Shown here one piece after another: positions 15,084-20,873 of a stretch of DNA of 29,469 bases. The DNA is taken from positions 1 to 29,469 of IMG/VR virus record IMGVR_UViG_3300005939_000029; one strand, written 5' to 3'. Within the stretch, counting starts at the first letter, position 1. Every line of letters begins with the position of its first letter. A program made the translations under genes and the position numbers. The DNA is from a virus. A model generated the notes under the pieces. It was not told where the DNA came from, did no database searches, and saw only the letters and a program-made list of their open reading frames with translations.

Positions 15084-15956
15084 ATGTCCACAGTCACGGA
15101 ACGGAGTAAGGACCCGGAGGCTATCGCCTCGGAGCTCGGACTCCCGGATCTCGTCGGACGAACAGCCCGCGTCTACCTCGACCGCCTCGAACAGGAGGAC
15201 TATCAGATCCCCGCGGACGCCCGGACCTACCCGGCTATCGTTTACTACGCGTCCCGGGACGAGGGCGAACCGTTCACCGCGGGAGAGGTAGCGGAACAGG
15301 CGGGCGTATCGGAAACCGCTGTTTCCCGGGAGTTCCGGCGTCTCGTAGACGCCCTCGGACACACCCCCGAACACGCGGATCCGGAGGCGTTCCTACAGCG
15401 GTTCGGGAACGAACTCTCCGCCTCGACGGAGACGGTGAACACAGCCCTCGACCTCTACCGGGAGGGCGCGGACACGGGGCTGTTCTCGAACCGGACGCCC
15501 GCGGTCGTCGCGTCCCTGTGTCTCTACGCGGCGTCCACCCTCACGGACGACGACCTCACACAGGCGGACTTTGAGGAGTTCGGCGTCTCGCGGACCTCTA
15601 TCCGGAAGGGCTACAAAACGGTTCTCTCCCTCCGCGGGGAGGAACAGTCCTCCGGTAAGATCTCCGAGGGCGACGCCGCGGACCGTCTCCGGGAGGCGGT
15701 CGAGGCTATCCACTCCGAACTCTCGTTCCCGGAGGTCGTTCTGGACGCCGCCCTCGAACGCGTCGAGGAGGTAGCCGGACAGGAGTGGGTCCGCGGTAAG
15801 TCCGCGGGTCCTATCGCCTCCGGGATCTACTGGATAGCCGCGGACGAGAACCGTATGGTCCTCTCACAGGGGGACGCCGCGGACGCCGCCCCCGGGAACG
15901 TCCACAAAGTCACGGTGAACCGTCGCGTCGCGGCTATCCGGGACCACGCCTCGTAA
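15084..15956 (+). CDS. TFB (TFIIB)-like factor without zinc ribbon, three cyclin-like repeats
   Basis: TFB bridges TBP at the promoter and RNA polymerase. This 290-residue protein has two convincing TFB core cyclin repeats. Repeat 1 (about 12-92) includes LGLPDLVGRTARVYLDRL and AGEVAEQAGVSETAVSREFR; repeat 2 (about 99-182) includes PEAFLQRFGNEL, GLFSNRTPAVVASLCLYAAS and FGVSRTSIRKGYKTVL. Residues 203-288 look like a third cyclin-like unit: ELSFPEVVLDAALERVEEVA, then GKSAGPIASGIYWIAA, then NVHKVTVNRRVAAI. The N-terminal CxxC zinc ribbon of ordinary TFB, which contacts polymerase, is absent, and the protein has only one Cys. It may select viral promoters, act as a competitor, or work with a host ribbon protein. 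Its stop overlaps the next ATG (TAATG). Confidence 0.75.
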   Translation: MSTVTERSKDPEAIASELGLPDLVGRTARVYLDRLEQEDYQIPADARTYPAIVYYASRDEGEPFTAGEVAEQAGVSETAVSREFRRLVDALGHTPEHADPEAFLQRFGNELSASTETVNTALDLYREGADTGLFSNRTPAVVASLCLYAASTLTDDDLTQADFEEFGVSRTSIRKGYKTVLSLRGEEQSSGKISEGDAADRLREAVEAIHSELSFPEVVLDAALERVEEVAGQEWVRGKSAGPIASGIYWIAADENRMVLSQGDAADAAPGNVHKVTVNRRVAAIRDHAS

Positions 15957-16305: not shown

Positions 16306-16809
16306 ATGGAGTGGAACCCCGGACCCAAATACCGGGCTTACCTGTCCGCTATTCAGGAGGTCCTACAGAACGGAGAGAAACGAACGGTGAGGGACGTTTA
16401 CTACGCGTTAGAGGCGCGTGGGTTCCCGGTCCGCGCCCGGTGGTATGAGTCCGAGGAGGAAATGGAGAACGACGGGGCGGGAACCCTGTCCAGTCTCGCG
16501 TTCGAGAGGTTAGCCGTGAACCCGGAGGACATAGCGGAGTTCGACCTCCCGGAGAACCCCACGCCCTCGTCCTCGGATAAGGACCGAAAGATCCGGGAGT
16601 CCTTTATGGAACACGTCTCCGGCGGTCGAGACGTGAACGTAGAACTAAACGCGCTGAAAGAGTTTCAGCGGGACTACTTAGAGGACCTGATAGAGGACGG
16701 GATCTCGAACCACGTAGACGAGGATCTGAAAGGGGAGGTAGCCCGTCGCGTCGAGGAGGCGAAACGGGACCTCTCCGAGGCGGTCCAGATAGACCGGGAC
16801 GCGCTGTAG
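16306..16809 (+). CDS. Hypothetical protein with topoisomerase VI-A-like RDVYYALEARGF motif
   Basis: The 167-residue protein has an N-terminal winged-helix-like segment (about 10-80). TVRDVYYALEARGFPVRARW resembles the 5Y-CAP region of Spo11/TopVIA proteins, where the tyrosine pair is followed by a helix. No Toprim domain (DxD) follows, and the total length is less than half of TopVIA, so it cannot be a complete subunit. The rest is a charged, probably coiled helical part (about 108-167, EFQRDYLEDLIEDG and EVARRVEEAKRDLSEAVQID). Similar short YY-containing winged-helix proteins occur in phages, so the motif alone does not prove topoisomerase ancestry. It has its own leaderless promoter. Confidence 0.5.
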   Translation: MEWNPGPKYRAYLSAIQEVLQNGEKRTVRDVYYALEARGFPVRARWYESEEEMENDGAGTLSSLAFERLAVNPEDIAEFDLPENPTPSSSDKDRKIRESFMEHVSGGRDVNVELNALKEFQRDYLEDLIEDGISNHVDEDLKGEVARRVEEAKRDLSEAVQIDRDAL

Positions 16810-17165: not shown

Positions 17166-17503
17166 TGGAACCCGGGACGGACGACCCGCGGGAGACGCTG
17201 GACGACCTCGTTCCGGAGGACGTTCTCTCTCACGTCGCGGGGGCGCTATCGGACTTTCCCTCCCTGTCTCTCCCCTACGAGGCGGTCGTCTACGAGGGCG
17301 GGGAGATAGACCGGGACGAACTCGGAAAGACGGTAGCCGCCCGGATTAAGTCCGAGAGTATCTACGGATCCGCCTACGTCGAGAGGGACGTAGAGGGCGA
17401 CGAGGACGACCCGGACAGTATCACTATCCGAGTTCTCGACCCGTCCGAGGTCGTCGTAGACGACGAGGGGAACGTTCAGGAGGTCGGTCGTGGGGAACAG
17501 TAA
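17165..17503 (+). CDS. Acidic hypothetical protein upstream of Hjc
   Basis: The 112-residue protein is strongly acidic, with an N-terminal helix (RETLDDLVPEDVLSHVAGAL, about 9-28) and a strand-rich C-terminal half (ESIYGSAYVERDVEGDEDD, then ITIRVLDPSEVVVDDEGNVQ). ATG 17165 is chosen because it overlaps the upstream stop as TGATG; the reading frame is open further upstream but conflicts with the membrane protein. It overlaps the Hjc start by 14 nt. No family is recognised. Confidence 0.55.
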   Translation: MEPGTDDPRETLDDLVPEDVLSHVAGALSDFPSLSLPYEAVVYEGGEIDRDELGKTVAARIKSESIYGSAYVERDVEGDEDDPDSITIRVLDPSEVVVDDEGNVQEVGRGEQ

Positions 17504-17900
17504 GGGCGACGCGGGCGAACGTGAACTCCGGGACATACTCCTCTCGGAGGCGTTCGCAGTTATCCGGGCGGCGGGATCCGGGTCCGCCCCGGGCGTCGAA
17601 CTCCCGGATCTCCACGTCGGGAACGGGGCGACGGAGTGGGCGATAGAGGCGAAACGACACAGCCCGGATAAGAACCGCTACCTCTCACCGGAGGAGGTCG
17701 AGGCGCTACTCTCCTACTCGACGTTCTTTCAGAACGCGAAACCGCGGGTAGCCGCCCGGTGGGACTACGACACTACGTGGTATCTCGCGGACCCGCGGGA
17801 TCTCCCGGAGACGCCCACGGGGAAACGGCGTCTCGACCCGGACGCCCGGGAGGAGGACCCGTGGACGACGCTGGACGACCTCCTCGAACGCGTCGCGTAG
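17490..17900 (+). CDS. hjc: Holliday junction resolvase Hjc
   Basis: Hjc cuts four-way DNA junctions symmetrically in recombination and replication restart. The 136-residue protein keeps the catalytic layout of the archaeal family: E10 in KGDAGERELRDIL, D40 in ELPDLHVGNG, and E53 with K55 in WAIEAKR, a PD-(D/E)xK nuclease core. The region YLSPEEVEALLSYSTFF and RVAARWDYDTTWYLA (to about 100) matches later parts of the family, and the C-terminal ~35 residues are an extension. It starts at GTG 17490 inside the preceding gene. It could process concatemers before packaging or resolve recombination intermediates. Confidence 0.85.
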   Translation: MGNSKGDAGERELRDILLSEAFAVIRAAGSGSAPGVELPDLHVGNGATEWAIEAKRHSPDKNRYLSPEEVEALLSYSTFFQNAKPRVAARWDYDTTWYLADPRDLPETPTGKRRLDPDAREEDPWTTLDDLLERVA

Positions 17901-18099: not shown

Positions 18100-18169
18100 A
18101 CCCTCCTATCCAAATGAATAGACGCCTTACCCGTAGCCCTCCCCGAACGTGCGACAGGCTACGAGTAAC

Positions 18170-18174
18170 GGAGG
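18170..18174 (+). promoter_or_regulatory. Ribosome binding site deciding the start at 18185
   Basis: GGAGG ends 10 nt before ATG 18185. The in-frame GTG at 18149 has no such sequence and lies within the inverted repeat, so ATG 18185 is preferred. Confidence 0.65.
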
Positions 18175-18184
18175 ATTACGCGCT

Positions 18185-19459
18185 ATGCCAAACGACGACG
18201 AAACAGAAACAGTCCGGAACGAGGAACGGGGCTGTGGCTTTCTCAAACACGGGAAAGCCTACGTCCGTTCCCCGCCCCGGTCCGCGGACGGGGTTCTCCC
18301 CTCGTTCGTGGAGTTCGACCCCGTGGTTCCCTACTTAGAGAGGTCTAAGTTCAGGGGCTACGAGTATTTCCCCGGAACGGAGTTCGAGTTATCCGTTACC
18401 GACTGGACGAACCTCCCGGAGGATAAAGAGACGTGGATCCGCCCACAGCCCGACGACGGGATAGACGAGGCGGCGTTTAACCCTATCAGCCCGGAGTTCG
18501 AGGACGGACCGGAGACGGAGTTCTCGACCGTTCCCCGTGGAGAGGTATGGAGACATATAGCCCGAACCGTCGGGTCCGCCTCTCCCTACGAACACGCGGG
18601 ACAGATCCCACAGTTTCAGTCCCGGGACCTGTTTATGTTCGTCGGAAAGTCCTACTACGAGACGCCGGAGGAGTTCATAGAGGAGGTCCACGAACAGGGA
18701 CTCTCTAAGGCTATCCCGGTGAGTGAATCACAGGAACCGCCCCGGATAGACCCCGGGAACACGCGTCTCTACCTCGTCCACCCGCGGGCGGTCTACTACG
18801 AGGAGACGGACACCTACAAGTCCGGGATAATCGGCTACGTCTACCTCCACAGAACGATTTACACGGAGGACGAGAAAGGGCGGTTCCCCGCGTGGGCGGA
18901 GAAACACGCCTCCGGTCGAGAGGATATGGACCTCGTTCGTATCGGGGACCAGATCTACGACGAAGGGACCCGGGCGACGACCATAAACGGAGTGTGTTCC
19001 GACGACGAGAGTCCCCGGAGTGAAACTGAAAGTGAACCCGTCTCCGTTCAGGCGTCCGATAAACCCGGGCGCGACGTGGAGGAGGTCCCGTCCGACGGAC
19101 TGGACGAGGACGCTATCCTCGACGGGCTGGACGAGGCGGAGGACGAGATCCGGGAGTTCGCGGAGGAGACGGAGAGGGTGGGCGAGTTCTACGTAGAGGT
19201 AAAGAACGACCTCTCCGAGTTCGGGATCTCCGGGTGGGACGAGTTCCGCGACGCGGTGGAGTTCGTGGACCTCCCGCCTGTCGAGGAGTTCCCGGACGAA
19301 CCTATGCGTCTACAGGCGGCGTCTACGGAACTCGAACTCCGCGACTCCGAGTATAACGACCTCCGCCGGAGGGCGTCGAGTAACGACCTGAACCCCGGAC
19401 GGAACCCGTCCGCGGACGACCTCGTTCGGGTTCTCCTGAAAGATATGGGGCTACTATGA
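18185..19459 (+). CDS. Large hypothetical protein, operon leader gene
   Basis: The 424-residue acidic protein is not recognised. The N-terminal two thirds (about 15-270) are a mixed alpha-beta globular region with aromatic-rich parts: RGCGFLKHGKAYVRSP (about 15-30), KFRGYEYFPGTEFELSVTDW, FQSRDLFMFVGKSYYETPEE, TRLYLVHPRAVYYEE, GIIGYVYLHRTIYTEDEKGR. A highly acidic linker (about 275-330) leads to a helical C-terminal region (about 325-424) with LDGLDEAEDEIREFAEETER. The promoter, leader hairpin and GGAGG site suggest it is expressed strongly and is the first gene of a unit ending with PCNA and HTH genes. A replication-associated role is plausible from context only. Confidence 0.6.
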   Translation: MPNDDETETVRNEERGCGFLKHGKAYVRSPPRSADGVLPSFVEFDPVVPYLERSKFRGYEYFPGTEFELSVTDWTNLPEDKETWIRPQPDDGIDEAAFNPISPEFEDGPETEFSTVPRGEVWRHIARTVGSASPYEHAGQIPQFQSRDLFMFVGKSYYETPEEFIEEVHEQGLSKAIPVSESQEPPRIDPGNTRLYLVHPRAVYYEETDTYKSGIIGYVYLHRTIYTEDEKGRFPAWAEKHASGREDMDLVRIGDQIYDEGTRATTINGVCSDDESPRSETESEPVSVQASDKPGRDVEEVPSDGLDEDAILDGLDEAEDEIREFAEETERVGEFYVEVKNDLSEFGISGWDEFRDAVEFVDLPPVEEFPDEPMRLQAASTELELRDSEYNDLRRRASSNDLNPGRNPSADDLVRVLLKDMGLL

Positions 19460-19671
19460 GAGGGTGGGGGACGGTCCAGCGGGTCCTCCGCGAACTCTAC
19501 GACGAGGAGAACGGAGTCCCACGGGAGGAGATAGTTCGAGAGGCGGTCCGGGAGGGCGTCCCCCGCGACGACGCGGAGGACGCTGTGGACGAACTCAAAC
19601 GACGCGGTGAGATCTACAACTCGGACCCGAAAAACAACCTACTGAAACCGACACCTACGCGTAAACTATGA
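19456..19671 (+). CDS. Stand-alone winged helix resembling the MCM C-terminal domain
   Basis: The 71-residue protein is almost entirely a winged helix: TVQRVLRELYDEENGVPREE, then IVREAVREGVPRDDAEDAVD and ELKRRGEIYNSD, then LLKPT. The pattern (VlreLydE, Gv.r..AedaidelkrrGeiy, lk.T) matches the C-terminal winged helix of archaeal MCM helicases, detached from any AAA+ part. It starts at an ATGA overlap with the preceding gene and overlaps PCNA in the same way, so the three are coupled. It could modulate host MCM by mimicking its regulatory domain. A plain DNA-binding function is the alternative. Confidence 0.6.
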   Translation: MRGWGTVQRVLRELYDEENGVPREEIVREAVREGVPRDDAEDAVDELKRRGEIYNSDPKNNLLKPTPTRKL

Positions 19672-20873
19672 GTCAGACACAGAAAGCGAAAGCGGACGAG
19701 GCGGAACAGGCGGACGAACAGAACGAGGCGGCTATCCACGTCGAGACGGGCGGAGATCTGTGGAGGTCTACGACGGACCTCCTCTCCGTCCTCGTAGACG
19801 AGTGTAAGGTCCGGTTCGACGCGGACGACGACGAGGACCCGGAGGTTCACGTCCGGGCTGTGAACCCCGCGAACGTGGGTATGGTCGAGGTCCGGATCCC
19901 GGCGGACGCGTTCGACGCCTACGAGGTCGAGGAGGCTACCGTCCTCGGACTCCCGCTGGACGAACTCACGACCATTACGGACTACGCCCGAAAAGGCGGG
20001 AACGGGGATAACCCGGGAGATCCCGTGATAGTCGAACAGGTCGGGAAACGGATCTACGTCCGCGTGGAACCGGAGGATAAGTGGAACCGGACGGGTTCCT
20101 TTTTCGAGATAGACCCGGACTCTATCCGACAGGAACCGGATATACCGGACCTCGACCGCCCGTGGAGGGGCGACGTGGAACCGTCGAACCTCCGCGACGC
20201 GCTGGACGGGATTAAGTCCCGGTTCGACTATGCCGCCCTCTCCGCGACGCCGGGGACTGTCGGAGACGGATCCCTCGGAAACAGGGAGGCGGCGTATTTC
20301 TCCGTCTACGCGGCGGAGACGAACGCCGCCCGGGAGATCCGCAAAGAGGACGAGTTTAGGTCCGACGAAAAACTCCTCCACGCCTCCCCGGGCGCGGACC
20401 CGGTTACGTCCGTGTTCAGTCTCGACCACCTCCGGGATATGCTACAGGGAGTCGTAAAGGCGGGGTTCGGGCGGGCGACGCTGGACCTCGGACAGGAGTT
20501 CCCGGTTACTATCTCGTTCTCCGGGAGTCGGTTCGGGATCTCCGGACAGTATATGTTAGCCCCTCGTATTAAGTCCGGAGAGTACGAGGACTCTACAGCG
20601 GACCTCTCGCGGACGTGGGGCGATAGGTTCGACGGGACGGACGAGGACACGGAGAACGACGCGGACGACGAGGAGGACGCTGTGGGCGACGAGACGGACG
20701 CCTCTACGGACGAGGACGAGGCGGAGGTCCCGGACTGTTCCGCCGGGGGCTGTGAGAACGACGCCTCCGAGGACGCGCTGGACGACGGCTACCCGCTGTG
20801 TGAGGACCACGACACTACGGACGCCCGCGAACTCTACGACTCCCGCGACGCGGACGAGGAGGAGGAGAACTAA
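19668..20873 (+). CDS. pcna: DNA sliding clamp PCNA with acidic zinc-finger-like tail
   Basis: PCNA is the ring that holds polymerase and other enzymes on DNA. The core (about 22-305) is recognisable from VRAVNPANVGMVEVRIPADA (about 62-81, PCNA domain 1) and from VFSLDHLRDMLQGVVKAG (about 249-266) with DLGQEFPVTISF and QYMLAPRIKS (about 273-303), the characteristic end of domain 2. An insertion of unknown function (about 105-165) precedes the interdomain region. After the normal end there is a tail of about 95 residues, rich in Asp and Glu and carrying C357-x4-C362-x15-C378-x2-H381, a possible zinc site. Host PCNAs are near 250 residues, so both insert and tail are unusual. It is coupled to neighbours by ATGA and TAATG overlaps. 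Confidence 0.85.
   Translation: MSQTQKAKADEAEQADEQNEAAIHVETGGDLWRSTTDLLSVLVDECKVRFDADDDEDPEVHVRAVNPANVGMVEVRIPADAFDAYEVEEATVLGLPLDELTTITDYARKGGNGDNPGDPVIVEQVGKRIYVRVEPEDKWNRTGSFFEIDPDSIRQEPDIPDLDRPWRGDVEPSNLRDALDGIKSRFDYAALSATPGTVGDGSLGNREAAYFSVYAAETNAAREIRKEDEFRSDEKLLHASPGADPVTSVFSLDHLRDMLQGVVKAGFGRATLDLGQEFPVTISFSGSRFGISGQYMLAPRIKSGEYEDSTADLSRTWGDRFDGTDEDTENDADDEEDAVGDETDASTDEDEAEVPDCSAGGCENDASEDALDDGYPLCEDHDTTDARELYDSRDADEEEEN

Follow-up and report, generated by a model that had tools for sequence, protein, structure and literature searches.

What does a virus gain from a sliding clamp of its own that ends in a long acidic tail with a cluster of Cys and His residues? This question is raised by the virus record IMGVR_UViG_3300005939_000029, whose 29.5-kb sequence (29,469 nucleotides) was analysed over its full length and is referred to as the window. 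Here, an open reading frame (ORF) of 401 amino acids runs without stops at 19668..20873 on the plus strand, as do all features of this gene given below. Its product is the PCNA of a tailed haloarchaeal virus. The best explanation, to which we give a probability of about 0.6, is that it forms a host-loaded homotrimeric clamp, which keeps the docking of PCNA-interacting protein (PIP) boxes and would recruit a partner through flexible acidic arms with zinc-binding knots.

The two-domain PCNA core (residues 26-303, 19743..20576) ends in the conserved MLAPRIKS. It is preceded by an acidic and Gln-rich extension (residues 1-25, 19668..19742), and several members of its clade have extensions of similar length. 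phmmer aligns residues 33-303 with Haloferax volcanii PCNA (HvPCNA, 3hi8) at E=5e-25. The NCBIfam archaeal clamp model matches residues 29-303 at E=6e-35, yet stays under its curated cut-off, and the match to Pfam PCNA_N is sub-threshold; both are expected, because the protein is divergent. In an AlphaFold2 model built with 34 relatives, most ten-residue blocks of the core reach predicted local distance difference test (pLDDT) values of 84-97, with weaker values (62-80) at residues 191-240. A Foldseek search with the modelled core returned archaeal PCNAs as best PDB matches (E ~1e-18), HvPCNA being the closest solved structure. An initial, sequence-only reading had called the clamp core well preserved, and these comparisons bear this out, giving a two-domain archaeal PCNA fold with detectable homology.

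The same reading had seen an unusual insert at about residues 105-165. This stretch aligns with PCNA throughout: it takes in the final strands of domain 1 as well as the interdomain connecting loop, so that the insert has to be rejected. The connecting loop (residues 148-166, 20109..20165; IDPDSIRQEPDIPDLDRPW) is the docking site for PIP boxes (PMC2737543), and DPDSIRQEPDIPDLD within it is essentially the same as HvPCNA residues 116-126. The PIP pocket is also kept, with M72, I159 and M296 equivalent to HvPCNA M46, I122 and M239, whose roles have been described (PMC2737543), and with IRQEPDIPDLD retained. Loop and pocket are thus those of an archaeal PCNA. Genuine extra segments are short at residues ~51-57, 108-117 (RKGGNGDNPG, 19989..20018) and 136-142, and longer at ~217-236 in domain 2. 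The loop at 108-117 is family-specific and partly common to the PCNAs of L014, L018, L040, L041 and the nearest relative, L013 (IMGVR_UViG_3300031732_000074; 41% identical); the one at ~136-142 is partly common to the same five and also to HFTV1. Both short loops thus recur to some extent in a mainly viral PCNA clade of ten members. HvPCNA (PDB 3HI8/3IFV) therefore resembles the viral protein in clamp fold, PIP loop 116-126 and pocket residues, and differs by lacking the tail, as well as in the loops and the domain-2 extra.

No family match of the PolB or AAA/RFC type was found in the window contig or the L013 record, where controls were positive and both of which may be fragments. Because no such protein was found and the PIP pocket is kept, the clamp probably still works with host replication factor C (RFC) and host polymerases. 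This disfavours the earlier suggestion that the tail replaces clamp-loader or PIP-box interactions.

The tail itself comprises residues 304-401 (20577..20870). It had been described as a 95-residue acidic extension with C357, C362, C378 and H381; its acidity and these four positions are exact, while its length is 98 residues. Asp and Glu make up 44% of the tail, compared with 19% of the core, and it is predicted to be disordered (pLDDT at most 52). An artefact of the reading frame is ruled out, as the tail continues the coding frame of the core, with a third-position GC of 0.89; the stop codon of pcna overlaps a following ATG (TAATG). Some 120 further PCNAs from viral and haloarchaeal contigs end 0-5 residues beyond APRI-x-x, and no host PCNA that we examined carries such a tail. 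A search for tails on PCNAs of plasmids gave a best match covering 72% of the query; the one match that extended beyond residue 303 was due to a neighbouring gene. The exceptions to the short ends are L013 and the PCNA domain in HCIV-1 VP1. L013 has a gene neighbourhood and an acidic C-terminal tail in common with the window, but its tail is half as long (49 residues) and has no Cys, nor a Cys/His cluster. As the nearest relative also carries one, the tail is a lineage trait and no assembly slip. A long C-terminal extension also follows a haloviral PCNA domain in HCIV-1 VP1, a virion protein of a sphaerolipovirus that contains two such domains (PMC4958249). However, VP1 is a 1608-residue protein of an unrelated virus, and its tail is unrelated.

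Within the tail, the four Cys and His residues form a C-x4-C-x15-C-x2-H knot (20736..20810), a putative zinc site without a family match. Judged from the arrangement of the ligands, a tetrahedral metal site is plausible, and the knot probably binds zinc. Cys accounts for 0.3% of the residues of this virus, so that the probability of at least three Cys among 98 residues is ~0.003, and a compact C(2-4)C...C(2-4)[CH] arrangement did not arise in any of 20,000 shuffled versions of the tail. Such a compact set of zinc ligands in a Cys-poor proteome, together with the strictly short ends of the other PCNAs, argues against the tail being neutral, that is, a disordered acidic extension tolerated through halophilic adaptation, with Cys and His as a decayed or non-functional remnant on what is just a clamp. 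We consider a neutral tail unlikely, but it is a real rival because the finger has been seen only once: it is not conserved, and the only tailed near-homologue is without it. Moreover, two other window proteins contain 50-residue stretches with at least 44% Asp/Glu, and the underlying DNA has low-complexity GAC/GAG repeats.

A possible counterpart of the finger is found in HSTV-1, whose gp42 is a free 46-residue CxxxxC...CxxH protein encoded two genes downstream of pcna. Within the 1.2 Mb of DNA that we fetched, no further acidic annotated gene contains CxxxxC...CxxH. All of these loci were picked around pcna, so that the proximity of the two genes carries little weight alone. The similarity to the tail finger reaches z ~5, or 3.4 with Cys/His held fixed, and tentatively suggests a resemblance; it is a mere lead, because the motif came first in finding it. 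That gp42 is a free protein also speaks for a separate finger protein of ~63 residues in the window, translated from an internal GTG (20682, V339) that is preceded by GAGGAGG (start-site sequence at 20670-20684). Yet the apparent Shine-Dalgarno sequence consists of mere Glu-Glu codons in a GAG-rich stretch, and a separate product is highly improbable.

How could a tailed clamp of this kind operate? Three copies of the viral PCNA would encircle viral DNA as a closed ring. Host RFC would probably load this ring, since neither a viral loader nor a viral polymerase was found. Host polymerases and repair enzymes would dock via their PIP boxes in the conserved pocket. From its C-terminus, each subunit would contribute a flexible acidic arm of 98 residues, which near its end carries the probably zinc-binding knot. 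The C-terminus of PCNA sits on the partner-binding face, so three arms would surround that face. Most likely, and most economically, the arm would recruit a viral or host partner through its metal knot and, as a tethered docking site, place it beside the PIP-box clients; such recruitment by the tail is plausible. As expected from PCNA structures, the tail would exit on the face of the PIP pocket; this and its strong negative charge would suit an arm that acts in cis, folding over the pocket or mimicking DNA, and that gates host partners or loading without recruiting anything. Such cis-regulation appears improbable: a PIP-like motif was not found in the tail, the AlphaFold2 model has no contact between tail and core (weak evidence), and the Cys/His knot would be left unexplained.

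Several observations weigh against recruitment by a zinc-tipped arm. A PIP box of canonical form was found neither in the tail nor in the window proteins. The whole tail is disordered in the AlphaFold2 model, and acidity is common among haloarchaeal proteins. The finger occurs in one sequence only. No homologues of it were found in Pfam, NCBIfam, PDB, phage records, IMG/VR or 292 haloarchaeal genomes, where weak matches were inspected and lacked the Cys motif, and the tail matches none of the known zinc-finger families in Pfam, NCBIfam and PDB. Haloarchaea commonly have small Cys-based knots that putatively bind metal, such as those of the C(P)XCG zinc-finger micro-proteins (PMC11241148). In contrast to these, the viral tail does not have two C(P)XCG motifs but a C-x4-C...C-x2-H fused to a clamp.

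A second peculiarity concerns the subunit interface. For HvPCNA, a single inter-subunit ion pair has been reported, between Arg72 and Asp172 (PMC2737543). In the window PCNA, R72 aligns with E99 (19962..19964), and D172/D173 with R225-K226 (20340..20345), in a region with a local 5-residue gap and a pLDDT of ~64; the equivalent of D172 is R225 when counted along the phmmer alignment and K226 in the profile alignment. The aligned charges are complementary with an apparently reversed polarity, which is absent elsewhere in the aligned set of 130 segments, a number that includes duplicates and VP1 fragments. Across this set, the R72 site is Arg or Lys in 111, Thr in nine and Glu only in the window PCNA. 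At the D172 site, 120 of the 130 have Asp, and a basic residue is present only in the window PCNA (Lys) and in L013 (Arg), which has Arg at the R72 site. The viral clade is often without the canonical pair (Thr-Asp in L014-L017, Lys-Gly in HFTV1, Arg-Arg in L013). Either true compensation or drift at a relaxed interface could therefore underlie the reversal. The clamp could even be self-segregating: with a reversed polarity of the ion pair, viral and host subunits would repel each other in mixed rings, leaving virus-only rings whose three zinc-tipped acidic arms address a viral partner. We regard self-segregation as quite doubtful.

Virus-encoded archaeal clamps are already recognised in the literature, among them the halovirus PCNAs of HFTV1 (gp63), HHTV-1 (gp54), HSTV-1 (gp40), phiCh1, phiH and CGphi46. 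These end a few residues past APRI, without acidic tail or finger. When the window PCNA was searched against a phage collection, only PCNAs of haloviruses and archaeal viruses matched, at 23-39% identity. In a quick tree of relatives retrieved by alignment search, it pairs with L013 (support 96) within a clade of ten rows (support 96) that contains viral PCNAs, including that of HFTV1, and two copies from host genomes, L040 and L041; branches are long, joins were flagged and the deeper placement is unsure. The L040 genome, Halorientalis pallida, additionally carries a canonical PCNA (L116), which makes it likely that L040 is proviral. The viral pcna is no recent capture from any of the types of host chromosome that were sampled. 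In HFTV1, the PCNA cluster is expressed early (PMC12542753). Among other viruses, Deep Lake virus DL_1.7 has a pcna ORF shortened to 102 codons (L011:2974-3282, OP630576.1); DL1 has a full one (L006:2974-3723, OP630574.1), and the left-flanking genes of the two match.

Tail genes of the minor tail and tape-measure families occupy the left end of the window, and a replication and regulation region its right side. The latter encodes a TFIIB-repeat protein of 290 residues (15084-15956; 50% identity with its L013 counterpart), an Hjc resolvase (17490-17900), a conserved protein of unknown fold and PCNA. A Topoisomerase VI A-like ORF (16306-16809, 167 residues) matches its 352-residue L013 counterpart (L013:10500-11558) only at residues 18-55 and 221-347; the ~165 middle residues that are missing in frame probably belong to the winged-helix and Toprim regions. 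The conserved protein (18149..19459, plus strand; start probably at 18185), which in several groups of haloviruses is encoded beside or close to pcna, on the upstream or the downstream side depending on the group, carries the RGCGFLKHGKAY motif and is a candidate partner of the clamp. Its AlphaFold2 model is poor (pLDDT 43), and further copies are present in L013 (4683-5705), L004 (1288-2538), L015-L017 and L143. The L013 copy ends in an acidic stretch and a CxxC...CxxC ribbon, which the window copy lacks. This ribbon protein and the free HSTV-1 protein fit small metal modules that move among proteins of the replication region. The wider context of L013 did not reveal an origin of the finger by fusion. 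Small free zinc-ribbon-like ORFs also occur near pcna in L019, L027, L032 and L037/L008; the 42-residue ribbon ORF of L027 overlaps the start of pcna.

In the libraries and literature that we searched, we came across no PCNA that has a finger-bearing acidic tail fused to it and none with a reversed interface pair, which does not prove novelty. A viral clamp that keeps host docking, with a reversed pair and a putative metal-binding arm, could explain why many haloviruses carry a PCNA of their own despite abundant host PCNA: it would provide private rings and an address tag. If self-segregation is true, the virus would possess a private replication platform amid the host clamps, on which the PIP-box enzymes of the host could still be used. 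If it is wrong, the window PCNA would still illustrate cleanly how a zinc-like mini-module can be joined to a clamp.
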